Below, piece by piece: positions 1-48,059 of a DNA stretch of 64,000 nt. Below the pieces are notes generated by a model. The model did no database searches and was not told the origin of the DNA. It saw only the letters and a list, made by a program, of their open reading frames with translations. The translations under genes were made by a program, and so were the position numbers. Source of the DNA: a virus. Where the stretch lies: the IMG/VR virus record IMGVR_UViG_3300034063_001075, positions 1-64,000 of that record, one strand, 5' to 3'. Every line of letters begins with the position of its first letter. Positions within the stretch are counted from its first letter, which is position 1.

Positions 1-2572
1 CGCTAGCAGGCTGCGGTGCTACGACAGGTGGAGCAGCTTCGGGTTCGTCTTCTTTGGCTTTGAGTCCCTCTTCAACGGCGTCTAGTCCGGCCTTGCCGAG
101 AGCCGCTTTCAGGTCTTCTACGGCTTTGTTAGTCGCCACGTTTTCTTCGGATATCTGTGTGGCTAGCTCGACCGTCGGCTCCTCTTTGTAATCCTGCGGG
201 TTCTGCGCGAAGTCTTGTTTCAGGCCCTCGAAAATCTGTTCGGGAGATTCTTCGAGGGGCATCGTGTAACCCACAAATTCGGCAAGTCTTTCCGCCTGTG
301 CGGTATCCCCGCGATTAACAAGAGCTTCGTGAAGTTCTTGAACGCCTTGTAGTGCTTCAGGAGTTCTTTGGATTAGGCCGTCTGCGTTGACGTTATCGCG
401 AGCGGCACTCCAAACTTTGAACGTGTCAGCATCAGCCAAGTCTGTAGCGTTGCTCGGTAGCTTCTGAACTTCGCTTACCCATTGTTTGTCCTGCTCGACA
501 ATCTTCTGCTCATCAGGCGAAAGAGGCTGGTTTTGCATGACCTTCTGTTGAACAGCCTTGCGCTGTTCTTCGTCAGGTCTCTCGACTGTTACGGTCGGCG
601 TAGACGATGTAGTTGGTGTGGCTGAAACGGGTTTTGTCTCCTGTGCTGTTTCGAGACTGTCTAGCGCCTTGTTTGCTGCTTCGATTGTTTTGGAAAGAAC
701 ATCCCTATCCACGTCCTCGCCCACTGTTTCCGACTTCTCGCGTAGCACGGAAGCGGTCATTGGGCTTCCTGTCTGCTCTGCTTGATCGGCACGACGTCTC
801 AAAAGAACGGAAGCAAATTTCTGAATACCATCCCTAGCCACGTTCACGCCGCCGCCGAGAAGACCTCCGTACACAGCGGCTTGCACACTTTCGCCGACAA
901 TGTCTCCCAGCGTCGCTTCGGGGCGATAAGACGCAATGCCGACCATGCCTTGAACAAACTGATCGATACCTTCTTCGGTAGCTTCCATCCCCGCTTCTTT
1001 GAGATACCTCCCAAGGCGGCTCTTGAAGCCTTTCGTTTTCGCGGCGGAAAACAGAGCGTCTACACCCGTTTTCCCGAAAGCAGAGGTGACGATTGCTGTG
1101 CTTACGCCAGAGGCTACTGCCGGAAGTTGGGCGCGATTCAAAGCGTCCTGCATCATTTCGTCTTCCGACATGACTCCAGCGCCTGCCTTCATGTTTTGAT
1201 CCATGTTGGCTTCGTACGCGTCGATGAACGTTCCGCCGTAAGACTGCATAGCTGATATACCAACCGAGGTTTTGAAACCCGCGTCGCTTACGATCTTGGG
1301 GAGAATGGTTCGGGCAGCTTGCGCCTGAATTGCAGGGTTTGCAATTCCTGCACCGCTGAACCCTGATGGGTTTCTAGCTGTAAGAGCATTCGCCAGTTGC
1401 CGTCCCGCAACGGCTCTTGTACCGCCAGCGACCACGCCACCCGCCAGTAAGGGGATTACTACGCTCGACGAAGTGGCTACGAAGTCTCCGGGGTCGCCTA
1501 TAACAGGCGTGGATTTTACGCCGAGAGCTTCGCGATATTGGCTTGCTTCTTCCAACCCCTCTCCAATTTTATCAGCAGTAGCGAGGAGCGATTTTGTAGT
1601 GTCGCTCGGTTTGCCGGATACAACATTGTCTACCGCAGAGGAGGCTCCAGCCGCTAACCCAATCGCAGGTTGGATAAGCGTCCCCATGAACGAATCCTTA
1701 ACGCCTGATCCGACGGCCCTCGCAAATGCGCCAACATCACCAATCTTATCCCGGTATGCGTTGACCGCATCCGCACTTGAAGCAAAGTCCCCTTGCGCTT
1801 CGAACGTTGAGAAATCACTGGTGTTTTTACGGAGCGCTTGAGCCATCCGTTCGCCTGTTGCTTCCCGATTAGCAGCAAAGTCTGCTAGAGCGCTTTGCTT
1901 CATCGCTGGGGTTGCTTCGGGGATGGAATTGATTGCGGACCTAAATTTGTTCTCGTCTAGCTGGTTATCCGGTGTGACAGCGATGCGCCCGTTTACAACC
2001 GCCCCTTGGATTTGATTGCGTGAGAGCTTTGCCAGCTTGTCTGCGGATTCCAAAAAGTTTCTGCGAACATCGGGGTCTTGGTATTCGTCTGCTAGGTCGG
2101 CGTACGCTTTCCGAAGCTGCGTTTCCTTAACTCTGATTGGGTCTTCGTTGTATCTTTGAATTTCTCCGTCCTTACCGATGCCCGTCATCCGAGCAAACGG
2201 CGAAAGTTTGTCTTCGTCCGCTATTTCGGGGAGAGGCCGGGGGTCGAATTTGTCCCAAGGCTCGAATCCGGGTCTGACGGCGTCTCCCTTTCCGTCTCCT
2301 TGAAAAAATCTCTGAGATTTAGTCGGTTCCTGTTGGGCAATAATCGCGGCTGCTTGCGAGACTTTATCTAGGTCGAATTGAACAACGCGCCCGAGAATTT
2401 CTTTACGTTTTTCCGCGTGTTTTTCGTCGGACCAAGTCGGTCCAATGCGCTTCTTCGCTTCTTCAGACCACGCATCTAAAATACTGACCTTCTTTGAAGG
2501 GTCAGCTTCCCCGAAGCGGGGGGATGCTTCGATATCAGCCCACTTCGGAAACGGGTCGGTTGGCCGAGACAT
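1..2572 (-). CDS. Large internal virion-type protein (C-terminus cut by window edge)
   Basis: An open frame runs unbroken from ATG at 2572 to the left window edge, giving at least 857 residues with the C-terminus missing. It begins MSRPTDPFPKWADIE. The N-terminal third is charged and helical; the middle holds Gly/Ala/Val-rich stretches such as LLAGGVVAGG and YGGLLGGG that could insert in or cross a membrane; the C-terminal part is acidic and coiled-coil-like. Long proteins of this make-up at the end of a podovirus structural operon are usually internal virion or ejection proteins. No transglycosylase or protease motif was seen. It is the last visible gene of the minus-strand structural operon, 5 bp after its neighbour. 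The ejection role is inferred from length, composition and position only. Confidence 0.75.
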   Translation of the reverse strand, partial: MSRPTDPFPKWADIEASPRFGEADPSKKVSILDAWSEEAKKRIGPTWSDEKHAEKRKEILGRVVQFDLDKVSQAAAIIAQQEPTKSQRFFQGDGKGDAVRPGFEPWDKFDPRPLPEIADEDKLSPFARMTGIGKDGEIQRYNEDPIRVKETQLRKAYADLADEYQDPDVRRNFLESADKLAKLSRNQIQGAVVNGRIAVTPDNQLDENKFRSAINSIPEATPAMKQSALADFAANREATGERMAQALRKNTSDFSTFEAQGDFASSADAVNAYRDKIGDVGAFARAVGSGVKDSFMGTLIQPAIGLAAGASSAVDNVVSGKPSDTTKSLLATADKIGEGLEEASQYREALGVKSTPVIGDPGDFVATSSSVVIPLLAGGVVAGGTRAVAGRQLANALTARNPSGFSGAGIANPAIQAQAARTILPKIVSDAGFKTSVGISAMQSYGGTFIDAYEANMDQNMKAGAGVMSEDEMMQDALNRAQLPAVASGVSTAIVTSAFGKTGVDALFSAAKTKGFKSRLGRYLKEAGMEATEEGIDQFVQGMVGIASYRPEATLGDIVGESVQAAVYGGLLGGGVNVARDGIQKFASVLLRRRADQAEQTGSPMTASVLREKSETVGEDVDRDVLSKTIEAANKALDSLETAQETKPVSATPTTSSTPTVTVERPDEEQRKAVQQKVMQNQPLSPDEQKIVEQDKQWVSEVQKLPSNATDLADADTFKVWSAARDNVNADGLIQRTPEALQGVQELHEALVNRGDTAQAERLAEFVGYTMPLEESPEQIFEGLKQDFAQNPQDYKEEPTVELATQISEENVATNKAVEDLKAALGKAGLDAVEEGLKAKEDEPEAAPPVVAPQPAS

Positions 2573-5522: not shown

Positions 5523-5530
5523 CATATACC
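5523..5530 (-). promoter_or_regulatory. GGTATATG junction site
   Basis: CATATACC on the plus strand in the 47-base gap between the adaptor-like gene and the Pro/Gly-rich gene. One of 13 copies of this octamer in the window, almost all at gene junctions. Confidence 0.4.
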
Positions 5531-6528
5531 TAGTAAAAATTACGAAGCCTTCGGATTTGAAAAGAGGACGGGTCGATCTGACCGCGATTGATAGCCCCGC
5601 CACGGAACTCCCGCATTTCTAGATTGAGGGTCGAAAAAGCTTTTTGCCAGTAGTCTTCGGCTCGTTCGAGGTCATTTTTGTTTTCGTAGTTAATCGCTAG
5701 CATCCCAAGCTTCAAGGCCCCCAAGTTGCCGGGGATGATGATTTCGTCCTTGTTACCGTCCACCGGGACAAACCTGCGTTTACAGACGGCGCGGACATGG
5801 GTGACGGGAAGAAGCGACGACACTTTGTATCGCCGAAACGACGGTGATGTGTCCTCGGGAACGTATACCGACAGAGGTGTTAGCTCTCCCGGTGCTGGTG
5901 ATGCGCCTACATACGCTGTGCTCCACCCATACATGGCAACATCTCCATAAGTAATAGGCTTTATAACAGAGGTAATCCGTTCAAACACTTCTGTAGAAAC
6001 GAAAGGAGTCGAAGGTGTTGGCAATGGAATCTCTAACTCGACGGGGGTTGGGGAGCCCCCTGAAGAAACCGTGGTCCCATAGCCCTTGACATACATCTTA
6101 CCGGGGGTGTTGGGGTCCAAGGGGTCGTAAGCATCGGCAGGGTTAAAGGTTTGAATTACGATTCGAACGGGCGTTTCAAAATCCTTTTCAAGAGGATGCC
6201 CTTCTCCCTCATCCACAAGCATTTGCATTCCTGCGCCTACGTCTGGCGAAATATGCCCCGGACCCCCGGTGATATATTCGTGAAACCGCCCATACACCTG
6301 TGTTCCGCGCCCTTCGATTTGGGCTGCTAGAATGCTAGAAAACTGCTTGGGGAGAGCTATTCGACCCTGCGAAGCTTCGAAGTCCAAAACCTCGGTCGTC
6401 CCCAACCACTTGCCGCTGGACAGAAATCGTTCGCAAACCTCGTTCAGGATACGAATAAACTCCGCCGTTGTCGGTGGAGCGTAACTTTGTAGAGCGCCGT
6501 AGGCGCGATCGAAAGTGAGACGATTCAT
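5530..6528 (-). CDS. Adaptor / tail-tubular-A-like virion protein
   Basis: A 332-residue protein starting MNRLTFDRAYGALQSYAPP. The N-terminus (TAEFIRILNEVCERFLSSG) is a helical segment like those at the start of podovirus head-to-tail adaptors (T7 gp11-like and relatives), which carry a helical bundle followed by beta-rich parts; here residues ~50-280 look beta-rich. The C-terminus has a helical repeat-like stretch (NYENKNDLERAEDYWQKAF). In the family the adaptor joins the portal to the tail nozzle. Assignment rests on pattern and genome context, not on an alignment; another neck or tail protein is possible. Confidence 0.5.
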   Translation of the reverse strand: MNRLTFDRAYGALQSYAPPTTAEFIRILNEVCERFLSSGKWLGTTEVLDFEASQGRIALPKQFSSILAAQIEGRGTQVYGRFHEYITGGPGHISPDVGAGMQMLVDEGEGHPLEKDFETPVRIVIQTFNPADAYDPLDPNTPGKMYVKGYGTTVSSGGSPTPVELEIPLPTPSTPFVSTEVFERITSVIKPITYGDVAMYGWSTAYVGASPAPGELTPLSVYVPEDTSPSFRRYKVSSLLPVTHVRAVCKRRFVPVDGNKDEIIIPGNLGALKLGMLAINYENKNDLERAEDYWQKAFSTLNLEMREFRGGAINRGQIDPSSFQIRRLRNFY

Positions 6529-7709: not shown

Positions 7710-10700
7710 TTACTCTGGTTGGCTCATTAGCACATAAGCGTATTTCGGTTCCCCATTGACGCAAACTTCGACTTGCTGAAAGTACGCGTCTTTGCCATAG
7801 GGCGGTCTAACGTCTACGTAGTTCGAGCCATTATTCACATATAAACCGCCACCGAACAGTCGGCTGTAAGCTCCGGACGAATAATTGACGTACAGAGAAC
7901 CGGGGGTGAGGGTCGAGTGGTCTCCGTTGGCATACTGAATACGAAGAGTAGTTTGCGTCAGATAACTGAAATCGTTGTTCGCTGAGGCCCGAAAAGTAGA
8001 ATTTGAGCCCTGTATTTCCATCGTTGCAAACGGGCCGCTAGAACTCCACACCTCACACTTACTTAGTGAGCCCGTCGAACGTATGCGGAAGTTTTGTTGG
8101 GCGTTAGTAGTGTATCCATACAAATAGGATTCACTCGCCTTAATCCCGCGATCTGACCAGTTATTAGAGTTGCTGAAGAGTTGTACAGAAATTTCGTTCT
8201 GCTTAGCCGACATCTTGTAATTCTGATTGTTATTACAGTAGGCCCATAAATACGCTTCGGTTTCTTTCAAACATAACTCTGCAAAGTTCTTAGAATTCTG
8301 ACCCCAGTACGTCTGAAACCCGCATTTATCAGCTTCAGCGAGCGTAGCTGCGAATCGGTCGTAAGTGTCATTACCGACGCCCCTATTACAACCTGTGTGT
8401 CGAACCGCTCTCCATGCCGCTTTTGTAGTCTGAACGTTTTCGCTGGTGGGCTCCGGAGTGATGTACCCAATAATGTCCATCGGACATCCGCTAGGGAGAC
8501 CCGCTGTGTAGTATCCCGCTTTGTCTGGAAGCGACCCTGCTCTTTCGCTTCCCTCGCGACCAAAAATAACTTCGGTGTGCGAAGTCTGCGACATGAGTAA
8601 AACTTTTCTCCGTCGGTCACCGCGCCCTATAAAAACGGGAACATAGCCTTGGCTAAAATATGTCGTATCTCCCGCTCGCACCGCCGCTCTCGCTTCGGGG
8701 CCGAGGCTTCTCAATATTTCTCTACGCTCTCGAAATTCGTCGCGGGTTTCGTACCCCCGGTTTTGTCGATCATTCCCAAGAAATTGAGCCGTCTGCGTGA
8801 AGTCGATTTTATCGTTCTTCTCCGTCATCGAGGCTCCCGCGCTTCCAGCGGGGTTGCTAGCAGGAGTAGTTTGACCTCCGCCTCCGCTATCCTGAGCGGT
8901 CCCGCCGTAAACGCGGTAATACGCTTCTTTTTCTTCGTTGCTAGCGAGTGCTGAAGGGCCCCAACCCCATTGAGAGTATGCCGGGTCGTTGCGGACGTTA
9001 TTGTCCATCCGAGCGTCGTTGTCGCTCCCAAACGGACGGTTTTCAGGTGCTTGATATCCGGAGCCGAACGACGACGGGGCCGTAGTCGGCGCAGGAGGCT
9101 CTGAAGTTGGGGCCGTAGTCGGCGCAGGAGTTGGAGTGGGTGCAGGTGCAGGTGCAGGTGCAGGTGCAGGTGCAGGTGCAGGCGCAGGTGCGGTGGCCGC
9201 TGGCGTAGGAGCAGGTGCTGGGTTTTCTGGCTGGGGGACGGGGGGAGGCGGAGTTGGTGTGGGGGCCACCGCAGGAGTAGCCGTTGGGAGAGGGGCCGTC
9301 CCGACATCCGGAACAACGGGTCCCGTTGATGGCGCAGAAATAGGTGTTGGCGCAGGCGCAGGTGTGGGTGCAGGAGCAGGAGCAGGCGTGGGAGCAGGCG
9401 CGGGTGCGGTGGGAGTCGGAGTGGGCGGAGGGGTCGGTGCGGGAGCAGGAGCAGGCGCGGGAGCAGGCGCGGGAGCAGGAGCAGGCGCGGGAGCAGGCGC
9501 GGGTGCGGGAGCAGGAGCAGGCGCGGGAGCAGGCGCGGGTGCGGGAGCAGGAGCAGGCGCGGGTGCGGGAGCAGGCGCGGGAGCGGGAGCAGGCGCGGGT
9601 GCGGGAGCAGGAGCAGGCGCGGGTGCAGGGGTCGGCGGAGTTGTGGCAGGCGCAGGGGTCGGCGGAGTTGTGGCAGGCGCGGGTGCGGGTTCCGCCGCAG
9701 GAGCCGTGGTGGGGGCGGGTGGGTTTGCGGGTTGAAGAGTTTGAGGTGCGGGAGGCGTAGCGGGTGGCGGAACGGGTACAGGTTCCGGGTTCGAGGGTGT
9801 CGGGAAAAAGGTCTGCGGAGGAGGAGGCGGGGTTGGAACTGACGTAGTCGTGGTCGCAGGTGAGGCAGATTCCGAGTCTGCTGAGTTCTGCGATTGGGTG
9901 GTTGAACTTGTCGAAGAAGAGCCAGCGCTTACAACAACTGGGACGAATAAAGTTTCGGAAGCCGTAAGGGGGGTCGGCGAAGCAGAAGAGGTTGAAGAAG
10001 GCTCAACTAGGGGTGCAGATTCGTTAAAAGTCGAGCTAGGGCGGGACGTGGGGTTAAGTTGAAAACTGCTTTCAGGTTCAAAACGAGGGAAAGGAGTCGA
10101 GATCGGTGTAAGAGCACCAAACATAGCCGACGTCTCCACCATACTAGGTGGTGCGGACTCTCCAGAACGACCCGAATCAGAGGGTCGGACGTCGCGATCT
10201 GTATTTGTGTTTTGTTGCGACGCATTGCTAGCATTATTCGAAAACGCAGATGGGAAAAACGCAGAAGGGGACATAGCCCCCATGAAAACATTTGTGGCTT
10301 CTGGAACTCCGGCGGAGATAGCGGCGGAACGGGAGTCTGGGTCCAAACGTATTGGCTCCTCGGAACGCTGTAGCGCGGGAGTTACTGGGGGTGCGGTAAC
10401 TTGAACAGGTTCTGAATTGAGTGCGGTCGATTGCGTGGAGGGGGGAGTCGGTCGCGATACTATTTCCGGAATTTCAACCGGACTTGTCGGTATGTTTAGC
10501 AGTGGGAGGGGGTTTGAATTTTGAATGGGCGGGGAAACAACTTGCGGCCCGACGTCCAGAGAAAAAAGACTCGGCGCATTTGAAGGTTTGGGTGTGAACA
10601 GCGCTTCTGCCGGAATAGAAATATCAAGGTTACCGTTTTGGAAATTCACCGGGTAACCGTTGAAAGTTAAGTTTTTAAGAGCGTCAGAAACCGCTGATTG

Positions 10701-11006
10701 AACGGCAGACTCAATCGGAGCACTTCCTGAAGATTGCCCCGAAACAGGAGCCGCTAGCATTTGTGCTACAAAAGAATCAGGAGCCCTCGAAGAGGGGGAA
10801 GCCGGGATGAACTGTTGGCCTTGATCGAATAGAAACGGAAGTTGAGGTGTCCCAATTACCGAAGGGGGAGGCGCAGGTGGCTTGGAAAACCGCGTATCGG
10901 AAACGGGGGTCTCAAGCCGACGCTCCTGTTCAACTACCGGGCTGGGTTGCCTAACAACCTGCTCCGGTAAGTTTGAAGTTTTTACAATGTCGTCTCTGTC
11001 AGCCAT
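7710..11006 (-). CDS. Pro-Ala-rich tail fibre-like protein
   Basis: A 1098-residue protein. Residues ~1-420 are Ser/Pro/Thr-rich and probably disordered; ~430-645 are an almost pure Ala-Pro repeat (APAPAP for scores of residues), expected to form a stiff extended rod; ~650-760 a second disordered linker; ~780-1098 a folded C-terminal region with Cys, Asn and Tyr, including TEVIFGREGSERAG, a central NNNQNYKMSAKQNE stretch and repeated short beta-like units near YANGDHSTLTPGSLYVNY. A rod ending in a compact beta-rich tip fits a host-binding fibre. The next gene upstream is the giant Ser-Gln/Ser-Thr protein. Receptor role is inferred. Confidence 0.65.
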   Translation of the reverse strand: MADRDDIVKTSNLPEQVVRQPSPVVEQERRLETPVSDTRFSKPPAPPPSVIGTPQLPFLFDQGQQFIPASPSSRAPDSFVAQMLAAPVSGQSSGSAPIESAVQSAVSDALKNLTFNGYPVNFQNGNLDISIPAEALFTPKPSNAPSLFSLDVGPQVVSPPIQNSNPLPLLNIPTSPVEIPEIVSRPTPPSTQSTALNSEPVQVTAPPVTPALQRSEEPIRLDPDSRSAAISAGVPEATNVFMGAMSPSAFFPSAFSNNASNASQQNTNTDRDVRPSDSGRSGESAPPSMVETSAMFGALTPISTPFPRFEPESSFQLNPTSRPSSTFNESAPLVEPSSTSSASPTPLTASETLFVPVVVSAGSSSTSSTTQSQNSADSESASPATTTTSVPTPPPPPQTFFPTPSNPEPVPVPPPATPPAPQTLQPANPPAPTTAPAAEPAPAPATTPPTPAPATTPPTPAPAPAPAPAPAPAPAPAPAPAPAPAPAPAPAPAPAPAPAPAPAPAPAPAPAPAPAPAPAPAPAPTPPPTPTPTAPAPAPTPAPAPAPTPAPAPTPISAPSTGPVVPDVGTAPLPTATPAVAPTPTPPPPVPQPENPAPAPTPAATAPAPAPAPAPAPAPAPAPTPTPAPTTAPTSEPPAPTTAPSSFGSGYQAPENRPFGSDNDARMDNNVRNDPAYSQWGWGPSALASNEEKEAYYRVYGGTAQDSGGGGQTTPASNPAGSAGASMTEKNDKIDFTQTAQFLGNDRQNRGYETRDEFRERREILRSLGPEARAAVRAGDTTYFSQGYVPVFIGRGDRRRKVLLMSQTSHTEVIFGREGSERAGSLPDKAGYYTAGLPSGCPMDIIGYITPEPTSENVQTTKAAWRAVRHTGCNRGVGNDTYDRFAATLAEADKCGFQTYWGQNSKNFAELCLKETEAYLWAYCNNNQNYKMSAKQNEISVQLFSNSNNWSDRGIKASESYLYGYTTNAQQNFRIRSTGSLSKCEVWSSSGPFATMEIQGSNSTFRASANNDFSYLTQTTLRIQYANGDHSTLTPGSLYVNYSSGAYSRLFGGGLYVNNGSNYVDVRPPYGKDAYFQQVEVCVNGEPKYAYVLMSQPE
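9126..9720 (-). repeat. GCAGGT/GCGGGA repeat coding (Ala-Pro)n
   Basis: A GC-rich imperfect tandem of GCAGGT, GCAGGC, GCGGGT and GCGGGA hexamers on the plus strand, coding Pro-Ala dipeptides on the minus strand. Interrupted once at about 9190-9340. The mixed codons show the dipeptide, rather than one DNA unit, is what is conserved. Likely length-variable. Confidence 0.85.
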
Positions 11007-11011
11007 AAATC

Positions 11012-14000
11012 CTACGCAACAAGGTCCGGAAGTTTCACTTCAACAACCTCCTCCACCCAAACGCCGAGCCGCCAATGTTCTGCGCTTCGGGCAACCTCAA
11101 CCCACTGGCCCCAAGGAAGCCCAGTAGGTTCAGTCGCCGGAATAACAACTAGCTCTCCCCCAACGTTCGCAACGATTTGAGGGTGCAAACATTTACCCAC
11201 GCTGATTCTCACAACCTCCTTGGAAGTAGATTCGGTCGAGCTATCTGCGGTGGTGGTTGAAGCGTTGTTCGTCTGGGAAGAAGATGTTCCCGAGGAAACC
11301 GAATTAGTTGAGGACTGCGATTGCCCACTCTGCTGCCCCTGCGTCTGGGACTGACTTGTTTGTTGTCCTTGGGTCTGGGAGTTTGCCGCAACGTTGGTGT
11401 TGCTATCCGACGTGCTGCTCGAAGAAGAATTCGAAGTTCCGTTAGAGTTACTCTGGGTAGTTGTTGTCGAATTGTTGGTCCCTGAAGACGAAGAAACCGA
11501 AGACGAGTTTGTCGTTGAAGCGGTTTGAGAAGAAGACTGCCCCGAAGACTGCGATGTAGTGGCGACTTGCGAAGTACCGTTTGAAGTCGTGCTAGCAGTA
11601 GAGGTTCCTGAAGACTGCGACTGGGACTGACTCTGGCTTTGTCCTTGCGACTGGGACTGACTCTGACTCTGACTCTGGCCTTGCGATTGGGACTGGGCTT
11701 GGCCTTGGCTTTGGGACTGGCTTTGCCCCTGAGACTGGCTCTGACTCTGGCCTTGGCTTTGGGACTGGCTTTGCCCCTGAGACTGGCTCTGACTCTGGCC
11801 TTGCGATTGGGACTGGGCTTGGCCTTGGCTTTGGGACTGGCTTTGCCCCTGAGACTGGCTCTGGCTTTGCCCCTGAGACTGACTCTGGCTTTGCCCCTGA
11901 GACTGCCCCTGCGTATTTGTTTGGCTTTGCCCCTGAGATTGATTTTGACCTTGGTTCTGGCTCTGCGACTGAGACTGACTATTAGAAGACGAAGTCCCGT
12001 TAGAAGTTGAGGTAGATGAACCCGTTGAGGTTGAAGTGCTGCTTGAAGTCGAAGTTCCGGTAGATGTGGACGTCGAGGTTGATGTTCCCGTTGAAGTAGA
12101 AGTTCCGGTAGAAGTTGACGAAGACGTCGAGCTACTCGTTGAAGTTGAGCTTCCTGTAGAACTCCCACTAGAAGTCGAAGAGGAGGTCGAACTAGAAGTC
12201 GAAGTTCCGCTGCTGGTGGAGCTAGAAGTCGAAGAGGAGGTCGAACTAGAAGTCGAAGAGGAGGTCGAACTAGAAGTCGATGAAGACGTTCCGCTGCTGG
12301 TAGAGCTAGAACTAGAAGTCGAAGTTCCGCTGCTGGTGGAGCTAGAAGTCGAAGAAGACGTTGAAGAAGAGGTAGAACTGGATGTTCCGCTGCTGGTAGA
12401 GCTAGAACTAGAAGTCGATGAAGACGTTCCACTGCTGGTAGAGCTAGAAGTCGATGAAGACGTTCCGCTTGACGTCGAGCTAGATGTTCCGCTGCTGGTA
12501 GAGCTAGAAGTCGAAGAGGAAGTCGAGCTTCCACTGCTAGTAGAGCTAGAAGTCGAAGAAGACGTTGAAGAAGAGGTAGAACTGGATGTTCCGCTGCTGG
12601 TAGAGCTAGAAGTCGAAGAGGAAGTCGAGCTAGAAGTAGAACTGGATGTTCCGCTGCTGGTAGAGGTACCGCTTGAGGTCGAGGTGGAGGAAGTGGAGGA
12701 GGTGGAAGTGGATGTTCCTGTATTAGTCGAAGTAGAAGTCGAATTTCCCGTGGAAGTTGACGTCCCTGTGGAGGTGGAAGTGGAAGTCGAGGTGGAGGTT
12801 GACGTTCCGGTGGATGTTGAAGTTCCGGTAGAAGTAGACGTCGAAGTAGACGTTCCGGTGGAAGTCGATGTCCCGGTGGAAGTGGAAGTGGAAGTTCCGG
12901 TAGATGTGGACGTTGAAGTCGATGTCCCGGTGGAAGTGGAAGTTCCGGTAGATGTCGAAGTGGAAGTTCCAGTGGAGGTAGACGTGCTTGTAGACGTAGA
13001 AGTTCCAGTGGAAGTAGATGTCCCGGTTGACGTTGAAGTAGAGGTAGAGGTCGAGGTGCTGGTGGACGTTCCTGTCGAAGTGCTGGTGGACGTTCCTGTC
13101 GAAGTCCCGGTAGACGTCGAGGTGCTAGTGGAGGTGCTTGTTCCGGTTGAGGTAGATGTTCCGGTGGAAGTTGATGTCCCCGTAGTCGTAGAAGTGGACG
13201 TCGAGGTGCTGGTGGACGTTCCTGTCGAGGTAGAGGTCGAGGTAGAGGTCGAGGTGCTGGTGGACGTTCCGGTAGAGGTAGACGTTCCAGTTGAGGTAGA
13301 TGTCGAAGTGCTGGTAGACGTTCCAGTTGAGGTAGATGTTCCGGTAGAGGTAGACGTTCCAGTTGAGGTAGACGTTCCTGTCGTTGTGCTTGTACTCGTC
13401 GAAGTAGACGTTCCGGTGGAAGTGTTAGTTCCTGTCGTTGTGCTTGTACCCGTCGAAGTGTTAGTTCCGCTCGTTGTGCCACTCGATGTTCCCGAAGAAC
13501 TACTGCTTCCGGAACTTTGAACGGTCGCGTTTGAAGTTCGGTTTTCTGTCGGGTCGCTGGTCAGAGGAGCGCCTCTGCGAGATGACGTGACCGAATCTCT
13601 TGAACCAGTTTGGGTGGTAGACTGGCTCTGCCCTTGAGATTGGTTCTGAGACTGGCTCTGCCCCTGAGACTGGTTCTGGCTCTGCGACTGACTTTGTCCT
13701 TGGGATTGAGACTGGCCTTGGCTCTGGCTCTGGGACTGGCTCTGGCTCTGTCCTTGAGATTGAGACTGGCCTTGGCTCTGACTTTGAGACTGGGATTGGT
13801 TCTGGCTCTGCGACTGACTCTGAGACTGGGATTGGTTCTGGCTCTGGGATTGGTTTTGGCTCTGAGACTGGCTCTGGCTCTGAGACTGGCCTTGGCTCTG
13901 CGACTGACTCTGAGACTGGCTCTGAGACTGACTCTGGCCCTGAGACTGGCCTTGGCTCTGACTTTGAGACTGGCTCTGGTTTTGGCTCTGGCTCTGGGAC

Positions 14001-16981
14001 TGGCCTTGGCTCTGCGACTGACTCTGAGACTGGCTTTGAGACTGACTCTGGTTCTGGCTCTGCGACTGACTTTGTCCTTGGGATTGAGATTGTGACTGAT
14101 TCTGGCTCTGAGATTGGTTTTGGCTTTGAGACTGGCTCTGCCCTTGCGACTGACTCTGAGACTGGCTCTGCGACTGGTTCTGCGATTGGCTCTGACTCTG
14201 AGACTGGCTCTGCCCTTGCGACTGACTCTGAGACTGACTCTGCGACTGGTTCTGCGATTGGCTCTGAGACTGGCCTTGGCTCTGCGACTGGCTTTGGTTC
14301 TGGCTCTGCGACTGATTTTGAGACTGGGACTGGCCTTGGCTCTGACTTTGAGACTGGCTCTGAGACTGGCTCTGGCTTTGTCCCTGCGTCTGACTCTGCC
14401 CTTGGTTCTGCGACTGACTCTGACTTTGTCCTTGGCTTTGACTCTGGGACTGAGACTGGCTCTGAGATTGCGATTGAGACTGCGACTGGCTCTGCCCTTG
14501 GCTCTGGGACTGGCTCTGCCCTTGGCTCTGGGACTGACTCTGGGACTGGGCTTGGCCTTGGCTTTGGGACTGGCTCTGCCCTTGGCTCTGGGACTGACTC
14601 TGGGACTGGCTCTGCCCTTGTGATTGAGACTGCGATTGAGACTGGCTCTGCGACTGGCTTTGAGACTGTGATTGGGACTGGCTCTGCGACTGGCTTTGAG
14701 ACTGTGATTGGGACTGGCTCTGTCCCTGCGACTGTGATTGGGACTGGCTCTGTCCCTGCGACTGGGACTGACTCTGATTCTGTCCTTGGGATTGGTTTTG
14801 GGACTGGCTCTGCGACTGCCCTTGGCTCTGGGACTGGCTCTGAGACTGGCCTTGGCTCTGCGACTGCCCTTGGCTCTGACTTTGAGACTGGCTCTGACTC
14901 TGTCCCTGAGATTGATTTTGGGACTGACTCTGAGACTGGCCCTGTCCCTGAGATTGGTTTTGGGACTGACTCTGCGACTGGCTTTGCCCCTGAGACTGGC
15001 TTTGCCCCTGAGACTGGTTTTGAGACTGGCTCTGGCTCTGGGACTGGCTCTGCCCTTGACTCTGGTTCTGGCTCTGGCTCTGAGACTGACTTTGCCCTTG
15101 GGACTGGTTCTGACTTTGTGACTGATTCTGGCCCTGCGTCTGAGACTGCGATGTAGAGGATCCGGTTGAAGAGGAGGTTCCGTTAGAGGTCCCAGTAGAG
15201 TTCGTGCTTGAAACAGAGTTAAATACCGTATTCGAATTCGACGTCGCGGAGGTATTCGAAACAGTATTCGAGTTTGTGTTCGAATTGGTATTCGAATTAG
15301 ACGAAGAGTTCGACGTCGAGTTAGAAGTAGAATTTGTATTTGAAACCGTATTCGAAGTGGACGAAGAGTTTGACGACGAGTTTGTGTTTGAAAAAGATGT
15401 TGAACTAGTAGTAGCGGAAGTTGTCGAAGAGCTATTTGAAGTCGAAGTTGAGTTAGTAAGTGCGTTCGAATTCGAAAGAATATTCGACGTAGTAAGAGAA
15501 TTAGAAGTAGAGCTTACAGAGGACGTGGTAGAAGTCGTGTTAGTGTTGCTAGAAGAAGATATGGAATTGTTGCTCCCGCTCGTCGTTGAGGATGAATTGC
15601 CCGTAGACGAAACACTTGAAGTGCCACTCGAAGTAGACTGCGACGTATTCGAAATAGTCCCGCTTGAAGTTCCAGTCGAAAAATTGGTAGCGGAACTTGT
15701 GGAGTTAACTGTAGACGTACCCGAAGAAAGACTTTGAGTATTTGTCGTAGACTGATTGCTTCCGCTCGTTGTCGAATTTGATATAACCGAGCTATTGGTT
15801 GTAGAGGAGTTTGTTCCCGTGCTCGAAGTAGTGAGGTTGCTGGACGATGTAGAATTATTTGAACCTTCCGAAGAAACTTCGGACTCCGAATGAGTTGAAC
15901 TGTTTCTAGTAATTTCTATCTCAACAGCCGTAGAAAAAGACTGGGCGTTGAAGATTTGAGCAGAAGGCTGATTTGTTGGAGGGCCGTAGTAAAAAGACCG
16001 AGTAAAGCGAGCGAGCAACGCACCGTCAGGAGCCGAGCGATACCGGGGAATAACCACCGGGGTTTCTGTCCCGACAACCTCCAACTCAAGCAATTCATCG
16101 GGGAGAGACGCTTCCCGGCGACGGCCATACCAAACTTGAGGTTGAGGGAGGACAATACTGCTAGCAACGCGAACGGAACGGAAGCTATCGACAGGGTCTA
16201 CCTCAGTAGCGATAACACGGTTTTGAGCCGTAATCTGAAGACCGCCTTCGGTCCCAGCAGATACAACCTTACGCTCAATGCGAATCGGAATACCCAGACG
16301 CTGATCAATCTGAGTTCCGACCAGTGTCGGCCAATCAGAATCGGCAAGTTCCGACTTCTCCAAGACGGACTTCCCACCCCCAAGCGGCTTGATGCTAGCA
16401 TCGATGACATCTTCGCCAAGTTGGATAGGTGTATCTGAATCAACGACTTGCTGCGTCGTATTGACCTTTACCCCACCGAAATCTTTTACCCAACCCTCAC
16501 CTGTCTGGGCAGGCCCCGGAAGCGTCTCGTAAACCCGAACAACCTTTACGAAAAGACTGTCCAAGGTTTGGTCATCAATCCTCTGGACTTCCTGCTCTAC
16601 GAGCTTGGCTGACGAATAAACAGGGTCGGGGGTTCCTGCTGCTAGCGGGGCGTAATCCTCTCGGGGGATTACGTACGACCGGATATAAATCGGGTGGTCT
16701 TTTGAGTTCCCCGAATACTTGATCGCGAAGTTGTACGCGTCTTGGTCTACGCGGTCTGTAGCGTAAACATTTCGAATCCAATTACCATCAATAGGCTGCT
16801 GGAAAACTAGTTTTAGATTAGGGTAGCGGAAGGTGTCCGGATGCGCGGTCCCGTACTCTTTGGCTACATACCCCGGAAGACGCGTATCCTCCTCCTGCAC
16901 CAACACCAAATCCGAAATATTCGGCGTCGGGTACGAGACGACTACTTCATTCGGACTAGGGTTACGAGGGCTCCGCATCAT
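11012..16981 (-). CDS. Giant Ser-Gln / Ser-Thr repeat fibre protein
   Basis: A 1989-residue protein starting MMRSPRNPSPNEVVVSY. Residues ~1-370 form a folded N-terminal domain (YPTPNISDLVLVQEEDTRLPGY; later PQPQVWYGRRREASLPDELL), probably the particle anchor. Residues ~370-610 are Ser/Thr/Asn-rich. Then come a ~500-residue (SQ)n tract with G, N or T substitutions (SQSQGQSQSQ), a ~500-residue TST/SST tract, a second shorter SQ tract and more Ser/Thr. The last ~70 residues are folded again and aromatic (LPWGQWVEVARSAEHW). So about 1550 residues are low complexity between two folded ends. It reads as an extremely long flexible tether on the virion. Start is the first ATG after the lysozyme stop, just past a GGTATATG site. 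Confidence 0.7.
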   Translation of the reverse strand: MMRSPRNPSPNEVVVSYPTPNISDLVLVQEEDTRLPGYVAKEYGTAHPDTFRYPNLKLVFQQPIDGNWIRNVYATDRVDQDAYNFAIKYSGNSKDHPIYIRSYVIPREDYAPLAAGTPDPVYSSAKLVEQEVQRIDDQTLDSLFVKVVRVYETLPGPAQTGEGWVKDFGGVKVNTTQQVVDSDTPIQLGEDVIDASIKPLGGGKSVLEKSELADSDWPTLVGTQIDQRLGIPIRIERKVVSAGTEGGLQITAQNRVIATEVDPVDSFRSVRVASSIVLPQPQVWYGRRREASLPDELLELEVVGTETPVVIPRYRSAPDGALLARFTRSFYYGPPTNQPSAQIFNAQSFSTAVEIEITRNSSTHSESEVSSEGSNNSTSSSNLTTSSTGTNSSTTNSSVISNSTTSGSNQSTTNTQSLSSGTSTVNSTSSATNFSTGTSSGTISNTSQSTSSGTSSVSSTGNSSSTTSGSNNSISSSSNTNTTSTTSSVSSTSNSLTTSNILSNSNALTNSTSTSNSSSTTSATTSSTSFSNTNSSSNSSSTSNTVSNTNSTSNSTSNSSSNSNTNSNTNSNTVSNTSATSNSNTVFNSVSSTNSTGTSNGTSSSTGSSTSQSQTQGQNQSQSQNQSQGQSQSQSQSQNQSQGQSQSQSQSQSQNQSQGQSQSQGQSQSQSQSQNQSQGQGQSQSQSQNQSQGQSQSQSQSQSQGQSQSQGQSQSQSQSQGQSQSQSQNQSQGQNQSQSQSQGQSQSQSQSQGQSQSQSQSQSQSQSQSQSQSQSQSQSQSQSQSQSQGQSQSQSQSQSQGQSQSQSQGQAQSQSQSQSQGQSQSQSQGQSQSQSQSQSQSQSQSQSQSQGQSQSQSQNQGQSQTQGQSQSQSQSQSQSQSQGQSQSQNQSQSQNQSQSQSQGQSQSQSQNQSQSQSQSQSQGQSQSQSQSQSQNQSQSQSQSQSQGQSQSQSQNQSQSQNQSQSQSQGQSQSQSQNQSQSQSQSQSQSQSQGQSQSQSQNQSQSQSQSQGQSQGQSQSQSQSQSQSQSQGQSQSQSQSQSQNQSQSQNQSQSQSQSQSQNQSQSQSQSQGQSQSQGQSQSQSQSQSQGQSQSQGQSQSQSQNQSQGQSQSQNQSQGQSQSTTQTGSRDSVTSSRRGAPLTSDPTENRTSNATVQSSGSSSSSGTSSGTTSGTNTSTGTSTTTGTNTSTGTSTSTSTSTTTGTSTSTGTSTSTGTSTSTGTSTSTSTSTSTGTSTSTGTSTSTSTSTSTSTSTGTSTSTSTSTSTTTGTSTSTGTSTSTGTSTSTSTSTSTGTSTGTSTSTSTGTSTSTSTSTSTSTSTGTSTSTGTSTSTSTSTSTGTSTSTSTGTSTSTGTSTSTSTSTGTSTSTSTGTSTSTGTSTSTSTSTGTSTSTGTSTSTSTSTSTSTGTSTSTGNSTSTSTNTGTSTSTSSTSSTSTSSGTSTSSGTSSSTSSSTSSSTSSSTSSGTSSSTSSSTSSSTSSSTSSGSSTSSSTSSSTSSGTSSSTSSGTSSSTSSSTSSGTSSSTSSSSSTSSGTSSSTSSSTSSSTSSSTSSGTSTSSSSSTSSGTSSSTSSSTSSSTSSSTSSSTSSSTSSGTSTSSSTSSSTSSGSSTGSSTSTSSSTSSSTSTGTSTSTGTSTSTSTSTGTSTSSSTSTSTGSSTSTSNGTSSSNSQSQSQSQNQGQNQSQGQSQTNTQGQSQGQSQSQSQGQSQSQSQGQSQSQSQGQAQSQSQGQSQSQSQGQSQSQSQGQSQSQSQGQSQSQSQGQAQSQSQGQSQSQSQSQSQGQSQSQSQSQSSGTSTASTTSNGTSQVATTSQSSGQSSSQTASTTNSSSVSSSSGTNNSTTTTQSNSNGTSNSSSSSTSDSNTNVAANSQTQGQQTSQSQTQGQQSGQSQSSTNSVSSGTSSSQTNNASTTTADSSTESTSKEVVRISVGKCLHPQIVANVGGELVVIPATEPTGLPWGQWVEVARSAEHWRLGVWVEEVVEVKLPDLVA
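11605..11990 (-). repeat. Second Ser-Gln repeat tract
   Basis: About 120 codons of SQ/GQ dipeptides in blocks of the form SQGQSQSQ, coded on the minus strand. Units such as CTTTGCCCCTGAGACTGGCT recur nearly exactly, so recent duplication is likely. Confidence 0.8.
12000..13500 (-). repeat. Thr/Ser repeat tract
   Basis: About 500 codons of (T/S)(S)(T/S)G-type repeats: the end nearer 13500 is TSTSTGTSTST, the end nearer 12000 is SSTSSGTSS. Two sub-families meet at about 12660-12740. Both are mixed in codon use. Confidence 0.85.
13615..15155 (-). repeat. Main Ser-Gln repeat tract
   Basis: About 510 codons of SQ dipeptides with every fourth to sixth Ser replaced by Gly or Asn (SQSQGQSQSQNQ). 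On the plus strand it reads as CTGGCTCTGAGA-like purine/pyrimidine hexamers. The period is 6 bases with higher-order blocks of 12-48. Confidence 0.88.
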
Positions 16982-16991
16982 AAGCGACCAA

Positions 16992-16999
16992 CATATACC
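16992..16999 (-). promoter_or_regulatory. GGTATATG junction site
   Basis: CATATACC (plus strand) between the lysozyme stop and the start of the giant repeat protein, about 10 bases upstream of that start. In the direction of transcription it reads GGTATATGTTGG. Confidence 0.42.
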
Positions 17000-17694
17000 T
17001 AGACGTGCAATTTAACAAGATCAGCTTCTGCGTCTCTTCTGCGGACTAACCCTTTGAACTTTGTGCCAACCCACAAGCGTTTCATCCGACGGATAAGGCC
17101 CTCAATTTGTTCGATGTCCCCAACGCGTACGGCTTCTCGAAGCATTGCCATTTCTTTTCGACGCGAACCAGTCAAAGAAGACCCCCGGTTAAAGACAATA
17201 GAAACCAGAGCCCCCAGAACGTCCGGATGGAGTTTCTCAGAACCGGGATACGTTTTCAAAGTAAGATCGACAAATCGTGGAAGCGTAGAGTGCCGAAATA
17301 CTTGCAGGGCTGACTCCCAAGGAATACGGATATCGGAAAGACTTTTAATTAGTGTCGAAGCCCGGACCCCCTTGACCGACAAAGTAGCGGCAAGGCGCTT
17401 GAATGTGACGCTCGACATCAGATTCCCACCCCAATCGCGGGAAAACTGCATGGGGGTGTTGTAACCAAGATCATACCCGATCCCAATAGTAACCCCCGAC
17501 GCGAGCCCCGGCCACGTGGGTTTAGAAAGATAGCGTTCGTAATAAGCTTTAGAACTGACCTCGTACTTTACGATCAGGTCGAACGCCTTGTCGGAAATCG
17601 CTGGCTTGCTAACAGATTGAGGAGGCGCTGTGGGAGAGTCCCAGAAAGACTTAACCCAGTCGGAGAATTGCGTGAAGAGGTCGAACCGCGCCAT
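16999..17694 (-). CDS. Phage-type lysozyme (endolysin or virion lysozyme)
   Basis: A 231-residue protein. After a short lead, residues ~35-80 hold KYEVSSKAYYERYL followed by GVTIGIGYDLGY, matching the lysozyme pattern of a catalytic Glu then G-x-T-x-G-x-G-x-D of muramidases related to glycoside hydrolase family 24. The C-terminal half is helical with VFNRGSSL, typical of the domain that closes the cleft. Expected to cut peptidoglycan glycan strands. No signal peptide or membrane anchor is seen, so release would need a holin, or it is virion-borne given its place inside the fibre block. Confidence 0.78.
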   Translation of the reverse strand: MARFDLFTQFSDWVKSFWDSPTAPPQSVSKPAISDKAFDLIVKYEVSSKAYYERYLSKPTWPGLASGVTIGIGYDLGYNTPMQFSRDWGGNLMSSVTFKRLAATLSVKGVRASTLIKSLSDIRIPWESALQVFRHSTLPRFVDLTLKTYPGSEKLHPDVLGALVSIVFNRGSSLTGSRRKEMAMLREAVRVGDIEQIEGLIRRMKRLWVGTKFKGLVRRRDAEADLVKLHV

Positions 17695-18167: not shown

Positions 18168-18689
18168 TTAGAATATTACGCTGACATTAGAAAGACCGGG
18201 GGTTTGAGCCGCTGCCCCTTTCCAAAAGTTGATGCGAACCACATGACCCGCAGGCACGTTGGACGCTGTAAGCGTGACGGTCTGTGGCGTATTAAAGGCA
18301 GGTTGCACTGCAAGTTGCTGACCACCAGTAGTTCTATTCACAATGTTCGCAGCCATTGCCCACGCGTTTCCATTGAATGGATTTGAGCCGTTCCATGAGA
18401 GAATGAAATCAGACGTTGCAGGCATTGTGAAATCTTGGAAAAACGTCAACAGCCCCCCCGCCTCTTGAGGTGAACGTGTAAGGCCCTGAAGATTTGCGTA
18501 ATAGACGCCCCCAAGTAATCGAACCAATGAGTCGTTTGTAGCCACATTTACAAACGTGCCCCAGCCAAAAGGCACTGCTCTGCCCCACCAATTCGCAACA
18601 TTGCTGGTCATGCCAGTGACATTTGAAAAGTCACCGTTTACGACGCGTTCTTCAGCAAAGGCATACGGATTGATTACGAAAGCACTCAT
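18168..18689 (-). CDS. Fibre tip / carbohydrate-binding-like protein
   Basis: A 173-residue beta-rich protein: RVVNGDFSNVTGMTSNVANW, then FFQDFTMPATSDFILSW, ending VVRINFWKGAAAQTPGLSNV. The 'VxNGDFxx...W' start and jelly-roll-like spacing resemble carbohydrate-binding modules seen in phage fibres. It overlaps the long fibre gene by 4 bases, so the two are co-translated and may form one fibre. Sugar binding is inference. Confidence 0.55.
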   Translation of the reverse strand: MSAFVINPYAFAEERVVNGDFSNVTGMTSNVANWWGRAVPFGWGTFVNVATNDSLVRLLGGVYYANLQGLTRSPQEAGGLLTFFQDFTMPATSDFILSWNGSNPFNGNAWAMAANIVNRTTGGQQLAVQPAFNTPQTVTLTASNVPAGHVVRINFWKGAAAQTPGLSNVSVIF

Positions 18690-20392
18690 AAAGGACGGGT
18701 TCCCTCCAAATATACTTTCAATCCTTTTCCTGCAAAAGAGCCGCCGACCTGTTGGACAAAAATGTTGAGCGCAATTGGTTGATCACCAAATATAGTCATG
18801 CTGTCAATGCTTGAAGCATGAGTTGTTCCGGCTGCTATAGTTACAGTTGCTAAATTATTAGTCCCCTGACGAAGATGCACGATTAGCGAAGATCCAGTCG
18901 GGGCTTCAGTGACCGAAGCACGGAAAGTCGAGAATTCCCACTCGAAAAAGTTGGTGAACACGAGCTTTTGTCCAGTAGTCAAAGGGGATGACTCGTTCGA
19001 ACAAGCGGCGATGATTTGGTAAGGGACGTTTTCGACAGGAGGATAATACTGTATGAGACTCCACCCGTTTACGGTATCCCAGACTATAGTCGCCCACTGA
19101 AACTTGGTACTCGCAAAGGCGGGGTCTAACTCCCCGAATTCCGTCTTAGTAAGAACGTTGGGTTTGTTAAGAATCTCCGCATCACCCGAAGTTGCGTTCC
19201 AGTCGGCCTTTGGAATATTCGCAATGTCCCGTCCATCAATATTCAGCCGATTACCCGGCCCTAAGTCCTGCCAATATACCGGATCGGTTACAGGTATAGA
19301 TTCATTGTCGAATTTCGCCCGATAAATCCGCCCTCCTGAATGCACTACATCCCCCGCAAGGTAGCGGGTTCCGTCAACAAGTGTATGGTTGGCAGTCCAC
19401 GGAACGGCGGCGTTGAAATAGAGGTCGTCGTGATTGTGGGCAGAAGGCGGAAACGAGGAGGGTTTATTTAGGATCTGCGCGTCCCCCGAGTTGGCGTTCC
19501 AATTAGCCTGCACGTTTGGACTGATCTCACTGTAAGAAGTGCCGTTCCAGACATATACTTTACCGTTGTCTGAAGTCACATACACGGAGCCACCTTGAGA
19601 AACAGCAACGCCAGTTGTAGGAAGAGCGGCAAAATTGGCTACGCTAACAAGTATATCCAAAGCGTCTCGTTGAGCTTGTGCATTTGCGGCAAGCAACAAA
19701 GCGCGGCCTGCGGCGGTGCTGTCGGAGATGGCCGAGGCGGGGTGAGTATGCTTTGAGGGGTTCTTGATCGACCAAGTGACGGGAGTGCTACCACCACCGA
19801 CTGCAACCAGTTCGACAGTCTCTCCATCAGCCAGAGTTATCAGGTCTGTAAAGCCAGTGCCGTATTGCGGACTCCCTTGGGGGGCGACTACCTCATATTG
19901 TCTGAGAACAACGCTCCACGGCCCACCAGCGTGAAACTGCGCGTTGTGGGTAAAGGTCAGGGTATCTCCGGGCTGCGCCCCATCATTCGACCTTGGCAAA
20001 GTGACCTTTCTGTTTTGTGAGAAGTTGTATGAGTTAAACGTGATAATTTGGTTCCTTCCGGCATTCACTACGGAATTGGCATTTGTCGTCCCCCCGATAT
20101 CGAAAGATATTCTAGACTCTTTCTGCCCTAGCGCGGTCTCCAACCCGGTCACTTCGCTTATGCTGGCCGCGACTACCTTCTCAACGAAATGCGAGTTATC
20201 GACACCGTCTTTGAACCAATACTCCACGACAGAGTTGCCGCTTTTGATACCGACGGTTAAGCCCTGATAACGTAAGCCGGACGAGAGGTCAGCGAGCGCG
20301 AGCGCGGTAGTATCGTAAGGCCCGTACTTCGCATCGATGGGTTTAGGGGAGCCAACGACTACGCCGCTTGAAAGTTGAATTCCAGTAGGCAT
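18686..20392 (-). CDS. Tail fibre protein
   Basis: A 568-residue protein. The N-terminal part has ALADLSSGLRYQGLTVGI. The middle carries fibre repeats: VQANWNANSGDAQILNKPS at about residue 295 and KADWNATSGDAEILNKPN at about 400, the W-N-A-x-S-G-D-A-x-I-L-N-K-P unit typical of trimeric phage fibres, plus HNHDDLYF and HTHPASAI histidine motifs that bind iron in fibre shafts. The C-terminal ~150 residues are beta-rich and likely form the tip. Overlaps its neighbours by one and four bases. Confidence 0.85.
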   Translation of the reverse strand: MPTGIQLSSGVVVGSPKPIDAKYGPYDTTALALADLSSGLRYQGLTVGIKSGNSVVEYWFKDGVDNSHFVEKVVAASISEVTGLETALGQKESRISFDIGGTTNANSVVNAGRNQIITFNSYNFSQNRKVTLPRSNDGAQPGDTLTFTHNAQFHAGGPWSVVLRQYEVVAPQGSPQYGTGFTDLITLADGETVELVAVGGGSTPVTWSIKNPSKHTHPASAISDSTAAGRALLLAANAQAQRDALDILVSVANFAALPTTGVAVSQGGSVYVTSDNGKVYVWNGTSYSEISPNVQANWNANSGDAQILNKPSSFPPSAHNHDDLYFNAAVPWTANHTLVDGTRYLAGDVVHSGGRIYRAKFDNESIPVTDPVYWQDLGPGNRLNIDGRDIANIPKADWNATSGDAEILNKPNVLTKTEFGELDPAFASTKFQWATIVWDTVNGWSLIQYYPPVENVPYQIIAACSNESSPLTTGQKLVFTNFFEWEFSTFRASVTEAPTGSSLIVHLRQGTNNLATVTIAAGTTHASSIDSMTIFGDQPIALNIFVQQVGGSFAGKGLKVYLEGTRPL

Positions 20393-46016: not shown

Positions 46017-46805
46017 TCAGACAGGGGGCGGAGCAGGCAGGGCGAGGAGCGGCTCCCCGCTCTCTGTTGGCGACCCGCTCTCACATTCTTGCGGCCTTCT
46101 CTGTAGCGGCCTGCTTTGGACGTCAATCTGCTCCTCTGCTAGCTGAGACAGGAAGCCGATGTTCACTATGGTCTTCGACTCCTTGTCTCCTTGGTCTAGG
46201 CCCAAGGTCTGTCTGGCTACAGAGTTGAGGGAAGAGATATCTTTGGCCTTGGACAGAAGCTGAGGGCCGTTCATCTTCGCTACTGAGTCCGCAAAGACTA
46301 GGGAGGCCCTTGCCATCTTCTCTCTGTAGCTCTTACCCTGCTCGACTAGCTTAGAGACGGCGGCATTGGTCGCCGATTCGAATCTCGCCTGTGCCGCCTC
46401 ATGGAGGGCGTCTATCTCCCTAGCCCACCCCTCCCTGCTGAACCTAGCTGTGAGGGTCTGCACCCCGCACCCCATGTCCGCCGCTATGTCTGCATAGGTG
46501 TCGCCACGGGCACGGCGAATCCTAGCCAACATCCAATCGATTGAATCAGTAAAGGTATCGGTCCCCGACTTCATTCGCTTCTTCGTCGCATAGCTCCTCT
46601 TCTTCTTCTTAGCCGGAGGCGATTCAGGATCAGGGGACTCAGGAGAATCAGGCGTGCTAGCACTGCTAGCAACTTCAGACCCGGCAGCCTCCGGGTCAAT
46701 CGCCGGGTCAATCGCCGGGTCTTCCGGGGGAAGCGCTGGGTCACTGTTGTGGAGCGCTAGCACAGTATCGAGAAACTCTTCTGACGGTTGGTCGTTCTGT
46801 TCCAT
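46017..46805 (-). CDS. HTH protein, candidate small terminase
   Basis: A 262-residue protein from ATG at 46805 (MEQNDQPSEEFLDTV); the open frame continues upstream but across the divergent promoter. Residues ~30-75 are Pro/Glu/Asp/Ser-rich with a DPAIDPAID duplication, then a basic KKKKRSYATKKR. A helix-turn-helix follows (DTYADIAADMGCGVQTLTARFSREGW without its first residues, ~95-120) and a long helical part, then a Pro-rich tail. The order HTH, helical oligomer domain, disordered tail suits a small terminase, which is missing near terL. A transcription regulator is the alternative. Confidence 0.55.
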   Translation of the reverse strand: MEQNDQPSEEFLDTVLALHNSDPALPPEDPAIDPAIDPEAAGSEVASSASTPDSPESPDPESPPAKKKKRSYATKKRMKSGTDTFTDSIDWMLARIRRARGDTYADIAADMGCGVQTLTARFSREGWAREIDALHEAAQARFESATNAAVSKLVEQGKSYREKMARASLVFADSVAKMNGPQLLSKAKDISSLNSVARQTLGLDQGDKESKTIVNIGFLSQLAEEQIDVQSRPLQRRPQECESGSPTESGEPLLALPAPPPV

Positions 46806-46887
46806 TCGATCAAAGGACGCTAGCAGCAAATCACTGATTTGCAAGAGGTTTGTGATACCTGCTAGCAGGTTGGGGATAAGTCGCTGT
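46806..46887. promoter_or_regulatory. Divergent control region with DnaA-box-like variant and GCTAGC cluster
   Basis: An 82-base gap between the minus-strand HTH gene and the first AAA ATPase gene. It contains GCTAGC at 46819 and 46860, the second within CCTGCTAGCAGG, and GGGGATAAG at 46871, the variant of the TGTGGATAAG element, ending eight bases before ATG 46888. Three more GCTAGC lie just inside the HTH gene. Confidence 0.5.
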
Positions 46888-47976: not shown

Positions 47977-47984
47977 CCGGATTG

Positions 47985-48007
47985 GCACAGGGTCCGACCC
48001 CCTGTGC
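47985..48007 (+). terminator. Hairpin after AAA ATPase 1 (no T tail)
   Basis: Arms GCACAGGG (47985-47992) and CCCTGTGC (48000-48007) around TCCGACC. No T run follows, so it may protect mRNA ends or act with Rho. The inner GGTCCGACCC recurs in the hairpin after the next gene. Confidence 0.45.
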
Positions 48008-48043
48008 TAGCACCTCAACCAACTCTGAAACTCTGAAAACCTC

Positions 48044-48052
48044 TGTGGATAA
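48044..48052 (+). promoter_or_regulatory. DnaA-box-like TGTGGATAA
   Basis: Exact copy; ATG of the next gene starts eight bases after it. Confidence 0.55.
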
Positions 48053-48059
48053 GAACCCG

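Follow-up and report, generated by a model that had tools for sequence, protein, structure and literature searches.

A giant polar repeat tract with strict two-residue parity in a probable virion appendage of an uncultured phage

A single gene of an uncultured lake-type phage encodes a polar repeat of extraordinary length, which raises the question of whether its pattern is an accident of DNA copying, the property of a flexible linker, or the trace of an ordered structure. The gene occupies positions 11012-16981 on the minus strand of the window, as we call the whole stretch of 64,000 nucleotides analyzed here, and encodes, from an ATG start, a protein of 1989 aa. A preliminary description, which gave no strand, had proposed a virion protein of this length in which about 1550 residues, or three-quarters, of Ser-Gln and Ser-Thr repeats link two ends. 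Both the open reading frame and the extent of the repeat were borne out. The protein contains 677 Ser, 359 Gln, 326 Thr, 154 Gly, and 102 Asn residues, and 1553 of its 1989 residues (78%) fall in 40-residue stretches with at least 85% S/T/G/N/Q, of which none was found in the other open reading frames of at least 100 aa in the window. Its ends are non-repetitive, the polar repeat between them is abnormally long, and the repeat content is far beyond chance.

All blocks of the protein are read from the minus strand. The non-repetitive N-terminal module (residues 1-357; 15911-16981) includes a segment predicted to be all-beta (165-335), and its residues 1-165, conserved in 35 or more relatives, are a candidate anchor. 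The tract opens with an S/T/N-rich part (358-611; 15149-15910), followed by SQ1 (612-1121; 13619-15148), a 29-residue linker (1122-1150, about STTQTGSRDSVTSSRRGAPLTSDPTENRTS; 13532-13618), the ST block (1151-1668; 11978-13531), in which TSTSTG gives way to SSTSSSTSSG, SQ2 (1669-1790; 11612-11977), and a mixed S/T/Q/N end (1791-1920; 11222-11611). The small C-terminal module (1921-1989 and the stop codon; 11012-11221) is again non-repetitive (...LHPQI...PATEP..P.G.WVEVARSAEHWRLGVWVEEVVEV). The whole tract of 1563 residues is nearly uncharged, with 9 D/E, 5 K/R, and 3 aromatic residues; by rough estimates, it would measure about 560 nm when fully stretched, or have a radius of gyration of about 15 nm as a coil.

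Repeats of this kind can collapse during assembly, which the preliminary description had named as a possible source of error. Such a collapse is unlikely here, because the contig closes into a circle: the record comprises 76,033 bases, and a 127-base stretch is shared by its start and its end, as expected of de Bruijn assembly at k=127. As the longest exact repeat within the tract is only 77 nt, an assembly of this type can pass through it. In addition, the sequence of a second contig (L036) is identical over the final 432 bases of the gene and the neighbors downstream of it, and the architecture recurs in homologs from other IMG/VR records.

The new observation on this protein is its strict dyad parity. 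The tract is a nearly perfect two-residue alternation, with Ser or Gly on one side and Gln or Thr on the other. SQ1 can be written as (Q-[S/G/N])255: Gln fills one face completely (255 of 255 positions), never replaced by H, K, E, P, R, or L, while the other face has 193 Ser, 37 Gly, 22 Asn, 2 Thr, and 1 Ala. On this Ser face, Gly and Asn are allowed, whereas Thr and Ala, which a single step separates from Ser codons, hardly occur. The Gly and Asn interruptions are spaced more evenly than by chance, with 7 adjacent cases against 14.9 expected from shuffles (fraction 0.0035, p about 0.004). Gln likewise takes 60 of 61 alternate positions in SQ2, and in the ST block, Thr fills 196 of the 259 positions of one face, while all 51 Gly lie on the opposite one. 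In the opening S/T/N-rich part, 12 of 12 Gly are on the Ser face and Asn favors the face opposite Ser by 35:8. Leaving out the linker, Gly is single-faced throughout the tract (123/123; 49/49 before the linker and 74/74 after it), and the dyad register shifts once, inside the linker. Two relatives show a similar bias: 68 of 69 Gly are on one face in L157, and Gly-Gly distances of up to 40 residues in L199 are even in 83 cases and odd in 17.

At the DNA level, this order is lost. The fraction of identical codons at short offsets is 0.40-0.49 in SQ1 (random expectation, 0.45-0.46) and 0.19-0.32 in the ST block (0.24-0.27), and Ser in SQ1 is encoded by both codon families (93 AGY, 100 TCN). The exceptions lie in SQ2, at an offset of 40 residues (0.75 against 0.41), which reflects a 120-nt duplication, and in the SSTS part, at an offset of 20 residues (0.39 against 0.26). 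The units called near-identical in the preliminary description are thus near-identical in protein, but not in DNA at the scale of the unit. Because the codons are randomized, the pattern is selected in the protein rather than produced by a microsatellite or by unit-by-unit copying of DNA. Longer copies are nevertheless present, as exact repeats of at least 30 nt cover 47% of SQ1, 35% of the ST block, and 54% of SQ2, against less than 1% on average in codon shuffles, and the longest (77 nt, in copies 120 nt apart) sits in SQ2. These scattered exact repeats of 30-77 nt record older segmental duplication. All 13 maximal exact-repeat pairs of at least 36 nt are spaced by multiples of 6 nt, as dyad parity requires. 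Since duplication in 6-nt steps carries the register along, the dyads are not independent events, and what points to selection is the lack of breaks in the register, together with the scarcity of single-step replacements.

A plain query with the single N-terminal sequence retrieved zero relatives, whereas alignment queries did retrieve them: 10 N-module loci in IMG/VR with the first, and then 36 with aligned sequences covering the first ~170 residues. Together, these define an unnamed family of 35 or more phage proteins with a conserved N-module, a small C-module, and a middle that is very variable in length, the complete relatives measuring 400-1205 aa. Ser/Thr-rich middles occur in four lineages: the window, the pair L156/L157, L168, and the pair L199/L200. 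The 1205-aa protein of L156/L157 has an N-module 58% identical to that of the window, and 54% identity over its last 54 residues; that of L199/L200 is 712 aa long, and the contig of L168 ends within SSTTSGTQ repeats. The genes of L199 (5902-8040) and L200 (2791-4929) are near-identical; they differ at only 7 nucleotides, each of which lies in the Ser/Thr-rich part and changes a residue.

In relatives lacking the tract, the middle consists of beta repeats in varying number or of an NHL propeller, such as the NHL beta-propeller of L195 (3525-6965; PF25021). The N-module of L196 (5950-9507) is nearly identical to that of L195, with other domains presumably replacing the tract, and in L201 (4239-7364), the N-terminal module could be recognized by eye three times in one protein. 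The combination of a conserved anchor with swappable middle modules, by which tail fibers can be recognized, is found in this family. In a tree of the N-modules, the tract-bearing lineages are not monophyletic, and the starred branches force at least two changes, with long-branch warnings attached.

Beyond this family, very little resembles the tract protein. No relative was found in PHROG, Pfam, PDB, or cultured phages, and scans of genome contigs for a host, with the N-module and with the terminase, likewise returned none. A structure search of BFVD gave a sole match with E <0.001, to an uncharacterized phage protein (A0A6J5RCY2). Scanning 2.9 million IMG/VR contigs for the DNA pattern of a Gln-X run with Gly interruptions returned one other contig, with a short Thr-Gln run or linker in an unrelated protein, and the pattern of a Thr-Ser-Gly run returned six contigs; these scans may omit close copies of the genome to which the window belongs. 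In the literature searched, we found no precedent for such a tract protein.

A possible starting point for the tract was found near the C-terminus of the relatives. The C-termini of the tract group are weakly related to those of one set of non-tract relatives: with the cA profile, all three tract C-termini outrank 2000 shuffles, albeit at E 0.01-0.3, while the best reverse matches reach E 0.0003-0.003, with a few sequences above all shuffles. The cB profile gave no cross-family match of the C-module. Just upstream of the C-module, several non-tract relatives carry short alternating Ser-X runs (for example RSLSNSNSLSES in L162, SKSKSISTSESASVS in L179, and SGSRSLSESTSRS in L164), with n=5-8, at ~115 or ~308 residues from the C-end, and with shuffle p values of 0.000-0.02 in the stronger cases. 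By eye, the runs near 115 align with the C-terminal border of the tract. This makes the short Ser-X element a plausible seed from which the tract may have grown.

The genomic context suggests where the protein acts. Immediately upstream, in the same orientation, lies an endolysin gene (16999-17694, minus strand; Phage_lysozyme, PF00959, above the Pfam cut-off). Directly downstream, 7710-11006 (minus strand) encodes a 1098-aa protein with a long Pro-Ala-rich linker, the likely counterpart of which in L157 (13631-15871) lies at the same place and lacks the PA run; the two share similar N- and C-terminal motifs by eye and gave no tblastn match. A few genes downstream of the family member, nearly all relatives with enough flank have a homolog of 5530-6528 (minus strand), a putative tail protein by position only, which matched nothing in PHROG or PDB. 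Upstream, a terminase gene was identified by PHROG, and 18686-20392 has a weak head-fiber match. The putative portal, capsid, and tail genes are named by gene order and size, with no match to a family, PHROG, or PDB, so that the location in the virion is itself something we infer. Given the order of the genes, with endolysin and fiber-like genes nearby, and the swapping of modules among relatives, the tract protein is probably a virion appendage, in line with the earlier proposal of a virion protein.

Several other features of the genome were recorded. A giant frame of ~4170 residues runs across contig ends (window 2-2572 and L202 5957-16033, both minus strand). An N4-like identity, with a large virion RNA polymerase, was considered for it and is not claimed, as a search with 3358 of its residues gave only an unknown PHROG (phrog_3170). 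On the plus strand of the window, 46654-47976, 47982-48950, and 53474-54613 encode two MoxR-like AAA ATPases and a DUF7192 protein, and 57489-57905 a pyrimidine dimer DNA glycosylase (PF03013). A 727-aa protein (61210-63393, minus strand) starts with an apparent signal peptide (MKIASAIIGAAAMFATTQLSHAQ) and is possibly a surface protein of lysogenic conversion.

What, then, would such an appendage look like? Strict two-residue parity is what would naturally be expected of beta strands, in which side chains alternate between faces. As the register is enforced although codons can vary freely, the most likely form of the tract is an extended, two-faced structure. The parity argues for this extended, probably beta geometry rather than for the flexible chain suggested in the preliminary description. 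AlphaFold2 predicts an all-beta N-module (mean pLDDT 73.9), the predicted fold of which found no match in the PDB; the model of a 427-aa relative (L158) was poor (pLDDT 64) and gave no fold match. The explanation we prefer, to which we give about an even chance, is a modular appendage, probably similar to a tail fiber, in which the middle is a two-faced extended spacer with a silk-like beta structure or beta shaft. The N-terminal module would most likely anchor the protein to the particle, and the small C-terminal module would lie at or near the far end, or be folded back. A short alternating Ser-X element would have expanded into the uncharged spacer, and the two faces, Ser/Gly against Gln/Thr/Asn, may set the reach of the appendage or its surface coat.

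The main rival to the two-faced shaft is a disordered, flexible tether or entropic brush, anchored at its N-terminus and carrying a C-terminal tip, for which only composition and length would matter. We consider it a serious though less probable possibility. The near absence of hydrophobic and charged residues from the tract fits this reading, and Ser/Thr/Gly-rich linkers without homology to the tract occur in other viral proteins (L207, L209), with comparable GTSTSTGTSTS runs. Those linkers, however, extend over tens to ~100 or more residues and lack a strict Q/T register of 500 residues. Moreover, a disordered chain would not need strict parity, and composition alone leaves the single-faced Gln and Gly unexplained given randomized codons. 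Parity is also seen in lineages of different composition.

A coat resembling that of bacterial SRRPs, in which alternating Ser/Thr residues accept O-glycans (or phosphate) to form a protective or adhesive brush, is unlikely in our view. SRRPs of Gram-positive bacteria share with the tract protein very long alternating-Ser tracts between non-repetitive domains; these tracts are O-glycosylated, and their repeat type and number differ between species (PMC6973325). Virions of mycobacteriophages can be glycosylated as well (PMC12363180). Unlike SRRPs, the tract protein is encoded by a phage gene in a putative structural operon, and half of its SQ tract is Gln, which is not an acceptor. It also lacks the long signal peptide with AST domain and the LPXTG motif: as read directly from the sequence, a hydrophobic signal core is missing from its N-terminus (MMRSPRNPSPNEVVVSYPTP), and its C-terminus (...EVKLPDLVA) has neither LPXTG nor a trailing hydrophobic or basic tail. 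GtfA/GtfB-type glycosyltransferases, sought with PF00534 (Glycos_transf_1) and PF00535 (Glycos_transf_2), were not found in the five tract-bearing records, G000 among them and several of them fragments, while Glycos_transf_1 is present in two tract-less relatives (G008:66606-66992 and G022:1101-1475). This speaks against glycosylation by the phage itself; modification encoded by the host is possible. The preliminary description had taken the Ser-Gln and Ser-Thr repeats as dense targets resembling those of phosphorylation and glycosylation.

We likewise doubt that the tract is a contingency locus, in which slippage or recombination would rapidly shift repeat length and tune the appendage between virions, as the phase-variable length module of the preliminary description implied. 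The abundant exact repeats in 6-nt spacing would suit such a locus, as would L168, the exception in the family, in which adjacent units are near-identical in DNA and fresh SSTTSGTQ copies alternate between DNA versions. In the window, nearest-neighbor codons are randomized and only the older segmental duplications are visible, and no length difference was seen between L156 and L157 or between L199 and L200, pairs of contigs from different samples of which the former, identical over 16 kb, is possibly not independent. Least probable are an assembly artifact and the neutral expansion of a low-complexity sequence or microsatellite: many viral contigs contain hexamer microsatellites of the pure CAR-WSN type, but those are mostly uniform and in short frames, whereas here the DNA is scrambled with the protein pattern kept, and the circular closure, the short longest repeat, and the shared architecture described above argue against an artifact.

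The preferred reading, a two-faced extended spacer, can be set beside two further known systems. In modular phage tail fibers with repeat shafts or collagen-like parts, conserved ends also flank a variable, repetitive middle, and the beta-repeat or propeller middles of the sister proteins follow the same plan; the tract differs in being a polar dyad repeat instead of a known shaft motif, with no sequence, PHROG, or Pfam match. The (pSX)n motifs of caddisfly H-fibroin silk share the alternating Ser-X and the Ser face, and form beta-sheets in which Ser is phosphorylated (PMC4929942). In silk, however, n is 4-5 and X is aliphatic or Arg, whereas in the phage tract n runs into the hundreds, X is a polar residue, and there is no known kinase. 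By the criteria tested, the tract protein is a member of neither the SRRPs nor the silks, although it would work somewhat like an SRRP stalk or a silk. More tentatively, it may represent a viral structural silk: a two-faced beta polymer of more than 1500 residues, grown from a Ser-X element and given different side-chain chemistries in different lineages.

Whichever structure it adopts, the tract is a clear example from nature of a low-complexity sequence of giant length that selection maintains in the protein although its DNA has been scrambled, and a short element found at the corresponding position of relatives may be its origin. Should the tract prove to be a disordered tether, one would have to ask why disorder requires strict parity. 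Should it be an ordered polar beta fiber, viruses would have provided a new material, a silk-like polymer in genetically compact form.
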